Source of the DNA: an uncultured Flavobacteriales bacterium
GTDB lineage: Bacteria > Bacteroidota > Bacteroidia > Flavobacteriales_D > CAJJDF01
Assembly: GCA_938009745.1 (NCBI GenBank)
Contig: CALLII010000068.1
Coordinates: 1 to 49,918, forward strand
DNA length: 49,918 bases
Direction: 5' to 3'
Part shown: positions 42,853-44,778 of the stretch, one piece after another
Layout of the letters: each line of letters opens with the position of its first letter
Numbering within the stretch: position 1 is the first letter of the stretch
The notes under the pieces: generated by a model
Told to the model about the DNA's origin: nothing
What the model saw: only the letters and a program-made list of their open reading frames with translations
Database searches by the model: none
Translations under genes and position numbers: made by a program

Positions 42853-43656
42853 ATGAAAAAATTAATTATCGCACTAAGTACACTTGCTATTATCTCATCA
42901 TGTACTAAAGAACCTGCAGATTTAACACCAACAAAATCAACAGAAACTAAAACCAACTTTTTGTTTAAACAATATTATGATGGAGCAGAGGTTACTTCTA
43001 GTGATTTTGGAACTACCCAATATACCAATGCTAAAGGAACAATGCATACAATCTCTAAACTTCAGTATTTAGTTTCGAATATTACTTTACATAAAGTTGA
43101 TGGGAGTGAAGTAAATTTGGGAGGATATAATTTAATTGATTTGGATTTACCTTTGTCAAGATATTATACTCCAATGAAAGAGATTCCTGCAGGAACCTAT
43201 TCAGCAGTATCTTTTACTTTTGGATTTGATGAAAGTGATAACATTACAGGAGAATATTTAGATTTAAATGCAGCATCATGGGCATGGCCAATGATGATTG
43301 GTGGTGGTTACCATTTTATGAAATTTGAAGGTATGTTTATGGATAATACCAGTAACATGACAGGATTTGCTTTTCATAATGGAACAGCATCTAGAGTTAA
43401 TTCTGATGGATCAAGAACAGCAGAGCCTAATTCATTTAGGGTAAAATTATGGGACTACGAAGGAGGATTTACTATTGAAGAAGGAGATAATACGACTATA
43501 GATATTAACATGAATCTTGCTGAATGGTTTAAGAACCCAATTACTTGGAGCTTAGATGATATGCACATGATGTTAATGCCAAATTATCAAGCTCAAAAAA
43601 TGATGAATCAAAACGGAAGATCTGTTTTTACTTTGGGTTTTATATCTAAGAACTAA
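42853..43656 (+). CDS. MbnP-like copper-binding lipoprotein
   Basis: 267 residues. A lipoprotein signal (AIISSC, C17) leads. The body matches the MbnP family: SKLQYLVSNITLHKVDGSEV, YNLIDLD, EIPAGTYSAVSFTFGFDE, the Trp/aromatic box ASWAWPMMIGGGYHFMKFEG (W143, W145, Y153, H154) and GFAFHNG (H175). In methanotroph MbnP and related MopE/CorA, one Trp of this box becomes kynurenine and, with histidines, binds copper; which Trp would react here is inference. It directly precedes an MbnH-like di-heme gene (no gap between stop and ATG), as in known MbnPH pairs. No methanobactin genes are seen. Confidence 0.8.
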   Translation: MKKLIIALSTLAIISSCTKEPADLTPTKSTETKTNFLFKQYYDGAEVTSSDFGTTQYTNAKGTMHTISKLQYLVSNITLHKVDGSEVNLGGYNLIDLDLPLSRYYTPMKEIPAGTYSAVSFTFGFDESDNITGEYLDLNAASWAWPMMIGGGYHFMKFEGMFMDNTSNMTGFAFHNGTASRVNSDGSRTAEPNSFRVKLWDYEGGFTIEEGDNTTIDINMNLAEWFKNPITWSLDDMHMMLMPNYQAQKMMNQNGRSVFTLGFISKN

Positions 43657-44778
43657 ATGAATAAATTAGCTAGCATACTATTAATTATTGCAACTTGTGT
43701 GTTGGTTACATCTTGTCGTAAGTCAGGATGTACCAACCCGAATGCAGTTAACTATAATGCTAGTGCAAAAGTAGATGATGGATCTTGTATTTGTCTTACT
43801 GCTTCTGGGCCAACACCATATAGTTTGGTTATTCCGGCTACTTTCCAAAGATTTCTTCCTGCACCAGTTTTTCCTGCGGATAATCCAATGACAGTTGAAG
43901 GTGTTGCTCTAGGAAAGAAGTTATTTTTTGATAAACGATTATCAGATGACCTTACATTAGCTTGTGCTAGTTGTCATTTACCTAGTCAGGCTTTTGATGA
44001 TACCAATAGATTTAGCGTAGGTATAAATGGAATAGCAGGGACGAGAAATGCTATGCCTCTTTTTAACCATGCTTGGAACCTTACAGGTAAATTTTTCTGG
44101 GATGGGCGTGCAATTGGTCTCGAAGAACAAGCTCTTGAACCAATAACAAACCCTATAGAAATGCACGATACTTGGGTTAATGTAGCTAGTAAAGTAAATG
44201 CAGATGCAACTTATAGAACTATGTTTACTAATGCATTTGGTTCTGTTCCAATCGATTCTAATTTAATAACTAAGGCTTTAGCTCAATATGAACGAACTCT
44301 AATATCAGGAAATTCTAAATTTGATAGGTACTTATTGAGGCAAGTTAATTTAACTCCAAGTGAACTTAATGGTTTTGGTTTATACATGGATGAAAGTGGA
44401 GCCGATTGTTTTCATTGTCATGGTGATGCAACAAATCCTTTGTGGACAGATAACTTATTTCATAATAATGGGCTAGATGCTTCGTTTACTGATAAAGGAT
44501 TGGGTGATGTAACTGGAAATCCAGTAGATGATGGAAAATTTAAGACTCCTAGTTTACGTAACTTAGTTTACACTGCACCATATATGCATGACGGTCGTTT
44601 TAAGACTCTGGACGAAGTGCTAGATCACTACAGTGATAGTTTAGTGCAATCTCCAACAATTTCTCCATTACTTAAAAATGTAGCCAATGGGGGAGTAAGG
44701 TTAACACCTCAAGAGAAAGCTGATTTGAAAGCATTTCTATTGACTTTGACTGATTCTAGTTTTGTTAGTGGTTATTGA
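43657..44778 (+). CDS. Di-heme c-type enzyme, MbnH/MauG-cytochrome c peroxidase family
   Basis: 373 residues. A lipoprotein signal (LVTSC, C20) is followed by a short cysteine module (C25 to C44, GCTNPNAVNYN to DDGSC), then two heme-attachment sites: C103-A-S-C106-H107 and C251-F-H-C254-H255. FFWDGR (W148) is the family's inter-heme tryptophan region, and LRNLVYTAPYMHDGRFKTL is the usual C-terminal signature. By neighbour and family it probably oxidises a Trp of the adjacent MbnP-like protein using peroxide-level ferryl hemes; ordinary peroxidase activity is the alternative. No Met is seen just before the terminal LTPQEKADLKAFL helix, where classical peroxidases carry a heme ligand; this needs alignment. 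Confidence 0.85.
   Translation: MNKLASILLIIATCVLVTSCRKSGCTNPNAVNYNASAKVDDGSCICLTASGPTPYSLVIPATFQRFLPAPVFPADNPMTVEGVALGKKLFFDKRLSDDLTLACASCHLPSQAFDDTNRFSVGINGIAGTRNAMPLFNHAWNLTGKFFWDGRAIGLEEQALEPITNPIEMHDTWVNVASKVNADATYRTMFTNAFGSVPIDSNLITKALAQYERTLISGNSKFDRYLLRQVNLTPSELNGFGLYMDESGADCFHCHGDATNPLWTDNLFHNNGLDASFTDKGLGDVTGNPVDDGKFKTPSLRNLVYTAPYMHDGRFKTLDEVLDHYSDSLVQSPTISPLLKNVANGGVRLTPQEKADLKAFLLTLTDSSFVSGY

Follow-up and report, generated by a model that had tools for sequence, protein, structure and literature searches.

A 49,918-nucleotide stretch of DNA from an uncultured Flavobacteriales bacterium (hereafter the window) carries two adjoining genes whose products resemble MbnP and MbnH, and raises the question of whether a di-haem enzyme here builds a copper site by oxidizing a tryptophan of its neighbor's product. 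The reference for such a system is the MbnP/MbnH pair of Methylosinus trichosporium, characterized by Manesis et al. 2021 (PNAS, as cited in PMC9426467). Our analysis identified the locus as a genuine MbnP/MbnH-type pair, common in this group and ordinary in its setting. The two genes lie back to back, as originally predicted, with the ATG of the second beginning on the base directly after the TAA stop of the first (Table 1).

Table 1. Coordinates of the gene pair and of its key residues within the window.
Feature	Position	Strand	Basis
MbnP-family lipoprotein gene, GGGYH subfamily, 267 aa, TAA stop	42853..43656	+	PF20243, AF2 model, 7L6G match
MbnP lipobox Cys17	42901..42903	+	N-terminal signal, relatives' alignment
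WxW motif W143-A144-W145, candidate substrate Trp(s)	43279..43287	+	Conservation; alignment with GMAWNWQAG of 7L6G
His154 (GGGYH motif)	43312..43314	+	Subfamily conservation
His175, candidate copper ligand	43375..43377	+	Conservation; alignment with 7L6G
Met242 (LMP motif), candidate copper ligand	43576..43578	+	Subfamily conservation; profile alignment
MbnH-type di-haem enzyme gene, 373 aa, lipoprotein signal	43657..44778	+	PF03150, TIGR04039 score, 6E1C match
First haem motif C103-x-x-C106-H107	43963..43977	+	132/132 relatives
Trp148 (FWDGRA)	44098..44100	+	Sequence motif
Second haem motif C251-x-x-C254-H255	44407..44421	+	132/132 relatives
Tyr325, aligned with MauG Tyr294 and a Tyr of 6E1C	44629..44631	+	Alignment; Tyr in 119/132 relatives

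By both domain and fold, the product of the first gene is a member of the MbnP family. The HMM check called for by the original prediction returned PF20243 at 115.5 bits (Pfam gathering cut-off 27; E = 3.6e-33), and an AF2 model built with 100 relatives (mean pLDDT 88, pTM 0.82) matched all six chains of 7L6G, the MbnP of M. trichosporium, in a Foldseek search (E 2.4e-7 to 1.4e-6, probability 1.00, TM ~0.5, ~13% identity). This was the sole confident fold match in the PDB, the next having an E of 0.099. PDB searches with the single sequence or a subclade profile returned nothing relevant; among the PDB searches with this protein, 7L6G was reached only via the wide-family profile and the fold search. 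Because its score against the MbnP_like_WxW equivalog TIGR04052 (21.1) lies below the NCBIfam cut-off of 140, we do not file the protein under that model. A lipobox cysteine, C17, follows the N-terminal signal and is kept in 84 of 107 relatives; it is the protein's only cysteine, those of the methanotroph proteins being missing.

The second gene encodes a CCP_MauG-domain protein (PF03150, 190.5 bits against a cut-off of 25.6, E = 3.4e-56). Its best NCBIfam match was the MbnH equivalog TIGR04039, at 247.5 bits against a cut-off of 362.85, and since this score lies below the equivalog cut-off, we call the enzyme MbnH-type rather than a TIGR04039 member; TIGR03791 scored 194 against a cut-off of 444. 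The best PDB match was 6E1C (E = 2.9e-59), the MbnH of M. trichosporium, and many bacterial cytochrome c peroxidases (CCPs) matched as well. Both predicted CxxCH sites were found and are invariant across the 132 relatives, and a lipobox cysteine, C20, is kept in 119 of them; with C17 of MbnP, this bears out the lipoprotein signals claimed for both proteins. In addition to its domain, the enzyme shares with MauG a set of Trp, Gln, Pro and Glu residues at equal spacing: Gln158, Pro162 and Glu168 are spaced like Gln103, Pro107 and Glu113 of MauG, and Trp148, judged by its motif, is presumably the inter-haem Trp of CCP/MauG. Like the MbnH of M. trichosporium OB3b, it also has a Tyr (Tyr325) at the position of MauG Tyr294, a haem ligand. 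Unlike MauG, which acts with methylamine dehydrogenase, it is partnered with MbnP.

We considered whether Tyr325 marks enzymes that are paired with MbnP and rejected this, as an unpaired enzyme of the same genome also has the Tyr. That protein (L133, G000:C16, 314-2412) is the third di-haem enzyme in the genome and has MNNG in place of MHDG. The gene upstream of it encodes not an MbnP but a lipoprotein carrying the heavy-metal-type motif GNCGMC, and the two are possibly another enzyme–substrate pair.

The pair has no methanobactin gene, TonB receptor or named copper gene next to it, in line with the original prediction; the MbnB family (PF05114) is also absent from the assembly, which is ~90% complete. 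Elsewhere in the genome, no match to TIGR01778 exceeded its cut-off, and no match to Cupredoxin_1 was found in the genome. The neighborhood of the pair is a core-gene region, with rpoB, rpoC, tuf and dnaK also present. The same prediction had treated this setting as unusual, a view that the gene-neighborhood survey overturned: PF20243 occurs in 75 of 80 related genomes, and at no fewer than 112 of 150 listed PF20243 places a same-strand CCP_MauG gene, always downstream, lies no more than 2.6 kb away. Searching with the patterns W[SAG]WP and GGYH recovered 172 relatives or genome stretches that belong to the same subfamily as the window's MbnP (WxWP...GGGYH). They come from named genomes, most of them Flavobacteriales, and some records are labeled Cyclobacteriaceae, Chitinophaga and Sphingobacteriaceae. 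The 80 subfamily loci that were retained mainly have the order MbnP then MbnH, some with MbnP in tandem ahead of one enzyme gene. A pair without methanobactin genes is therefore the rule in this group, across the order, and MbnP/MbnH-type pairs far beyond methanobactin producers had already been described in 2013 (PMC3621798).

The window's pair thus shares family, pairing and gene order with other Bacteroidota PF20243 proteins that have neighboring CCP/MauG genes, some of which have a second di-haem gene or carry a type IX secretion tail. Among relatives, we observed two tandem di-haem genes after one MbnP in L036, L037 and L092, and a single di-haem gene preceded by at least two MbnP genes in L147, L167 and L170. 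The window's genome itself holds a second MbnP (L002, G000:C35:7100-9400), which has a type IX secretion tail, lies behind an HYC_CC_PP-family gene and is cut by the contig end; another contig, C88, begins with a di-haem gene (L134) that is closest to the partners of the type-IX-tailed MbnP type and may be the missing neighbor of this second MbnP. In plasmid records (L220-L224, e.g. Methylocystis parvus), the gene after MbnP is named 'methanobactin export MATE transporter MbnM'; its products have two CxxCH motifs and hit the MbnH profile with E values under 1e-86, which makes this product name look wrong.

We then asked which residues of MbnP could form the modified site. W143, W145, H154 and H175 all stand in the translation where they had been predicted. 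Across the PF20243 proteins of relatives, 107 in all, G124, W143 and H175 show no variation, and 103 of the proteins retain W145. A profile of 100 PF20243 relatives aligned with 7L6G through GMAWNWQAG and VHVG, pairing H175 with the His of MVHVG, and W143, W145 and H175 therefore occupy the known MbnP motif positions. For this reason, the yardstick of the original prediction, a His two residues after a Trp as in MopE, was the wrong comparison: the model has the MbnP fold, and MbnP uses WxW.

Other residues distinguish the subfamily, for which we used an alignment of 84 rows, one of them a false motif hit (L192, 7307-10621) that is to be discounted. H154, which lies in an inserted PxxxGGGYH loop that sets the protein apart from the OB3b MbnP, is present in 83 of these rows versus 10 of 107 in the wider PF20243 set; H175 and M242 are each kept in 82. 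Most Bacteroidota PF20243 proteins (83 of 107) have a His in the C-terminal region, where the window's subclade has an (M)LMP motif instead. The subfamily profile aligned M242 with the conserved Met of a CMS motif common to the MbnPs of methanotrophs, Paracoccus, Ideonella and Trichormus. With the wider profile the alignment was shifted by one position, which leaves this pairing no more than likely. The tryptophans themselves vary, with W-W in 50 rows, W-V in 21 and M-W in 13, and no row lacks both. In the M-W group, where Met replaces W143, that alignment retains the second Trp alone, although loop length varies and this single Trp could thus be homologous to W143; a switch of Trp position between lineages is one reading that the alignment could bear. 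In Tenacibaculum sp. L6 (L200), the one subfamily copy whose 10-kb locus lacks an MbnH, both H175 and M242 are lost; this single case agrees with the direction that the pair model predicts.

In a tree of 167 MbnH-type enzymes labeled by the adjoining MbnP type, the GGGYH label changed 2 times versus a mean of 55.7 for shuffled labels; near-copies inflate such tests, but the trend is unambiguous. Every type of MbnP is accompanied by a separate lineage of enzymes, and the GGGYH partners form nearly one clade. A fused-chain model of the two proteins (102 rows, with Gly in place of the stop codon) gave a pTM of 0.61 and no confident docking. The pLDDT of the WxW loop rose from ~48 in the single model to ~91 in the fused chain, but the input alignment also differed, so the rise is no proof of contact.

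The reading we favor, and consider probable, is an envelope MbnP/MbnH pair in which the di-haem enzyme oxidizes a Trp of its partner to kynurenine and thereby matures a Cu(I) site. It builds on the family, fold, motif conservation and widespread, clade-specific pairing observed here, and would borrow the Trp oxidation, the kynurenine, the copper and its oxidation state from characterized relatives. In the OB3b protein, the first Trp of WxW reportedly becomes kynurenine, and the Cu(I) site is said to have His, Met and a solvent ligand. Here, both proteins would be exported and probably lipid-anchored in the envelope, where the enzyme, loaded with two c-type haems, would reach a high-valent state like that of MbnH and MauG. 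It would oxidize a WxW Trp of the neighboring lipoprotein, most likely W143, the first, and a mononuclear Cu(I) site would arise near the kynurenine from H175, a Met (M242) and perhaps H154. Mature MbnP would then hold copper or pass it on at the envelope; copper acquisition is a plausible role, and uptake or trafficking a guess. A bolder extension, which we put forward tentatively and with more doubt than belief, is that the GGGYH subfamily forms a distinct post-translationally built metal site, in which H154 joins H175 and M242, the oxidized Trp is W143 or W145 by lineage, and tandem MbnPs share one enzyme.

The features peculiar to the subfamily could also be taken to mean that the motif is modified to another product (hydroxy-Trp, a cross-link or a quinone) or serves another metal, the pair being an offshoot with different chemistry. 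The nearly invariant extra His154, the inserted loop, Met242, the existence of single-Trp variants of both kinds and the scores of both proteins below the equivalog cut-offs all fit such an offshoot; the MbnP fold, the equal positions of WxW and His, and MbnH as the enzyme's best PDB relative make it unlikely in our judgment. Less probable again is a peroxide-detoxifying cytochrome c peroxidase to which the lipoprotein is a mere neighbor or structural partner. Membership of the CCP/MauG superfamily and the many matching bacterial CCPs would suit this explanation, whereas the MbnH/MauG-type Tyr325, the pairing with MbnP over many genera together with its clade specificity, and a closest solved structure that is MbnH and not a CCP speak against it; Tyr325 and the pairing with MbnP in particular led us to disfavor a plain peroxidase.

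We give next to no credence to a MopE/CorA-type surface copper protein. MopE/SACCP and CorA/CorB likewise combine an envelope copper protein and the idea of a kynurenine copper site with a di-haem gene partner (PMC3912023), but neither MopE nor CorA was among the best fold matches, and fold and ligand spacing here differ from those of the MopE and CorA systems (Kyn62, H64 and H114 in CorA; PMC3912023). The MbnP fold (7L6G) and the absence of a W-x-H motif led us to reject membership of that group. With the OB3b pair (7L6G, 6E1C), the locus shares the gene pair, the MbnP fold, WxW and the conserved His; unlike that pair, the two proteins here are lipoproteins and are encoded away from methanobactin genes.

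Comparison with sister species revealed a further component of such loci. Directly upstream of MbnP, the sister species G002 and G003 have one or two further genes, as do 25 of ~100 order-wide loci and ~20 of 80 named subfamily loci. Their products, a small membrane protein carrying CxGxC and a barrel-like one whose sequence starts ACDxC, belong to no Pfam or NCBIfam family. We saw this cassette upstream of the pair in L033, L034, L036, L046-L048 and L089, and in many Bacteroidota. G003 has the barrel gene and G002 has it divided between two frames; neither G001 nor the window's ~90% complete genome yielded a copy. Both accessory genes are missing from the window's locus, and their absence there is certain, because the gap lies inside the window. 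In G001, the corresponding gap before MbnP retains a broken remnant of the small gene. Given these remnant and split copies, and a gene order around the pair that is otherwise shared with the sister species, loss of the accessory genes probably occurred within this genus, with the MbnP/MbnH pair retained.

Collectively, the interest of this locus lies in the details of its subfamily (His154, Met242, the single-Trp variants and the lost accessory genes) rather than in the pair itself. The lost accessory genes are candidates for a missing outer-membrane part of the system. The natural single-Trp variants, WxV and MxW, would reveal directly which Trp the di-haem enzyme oxidizes. If our reading is right, kynurenine copper sites would be routine envelope components in Flavobacteriales and other Bacteroidota, well away from the methanotrophs.
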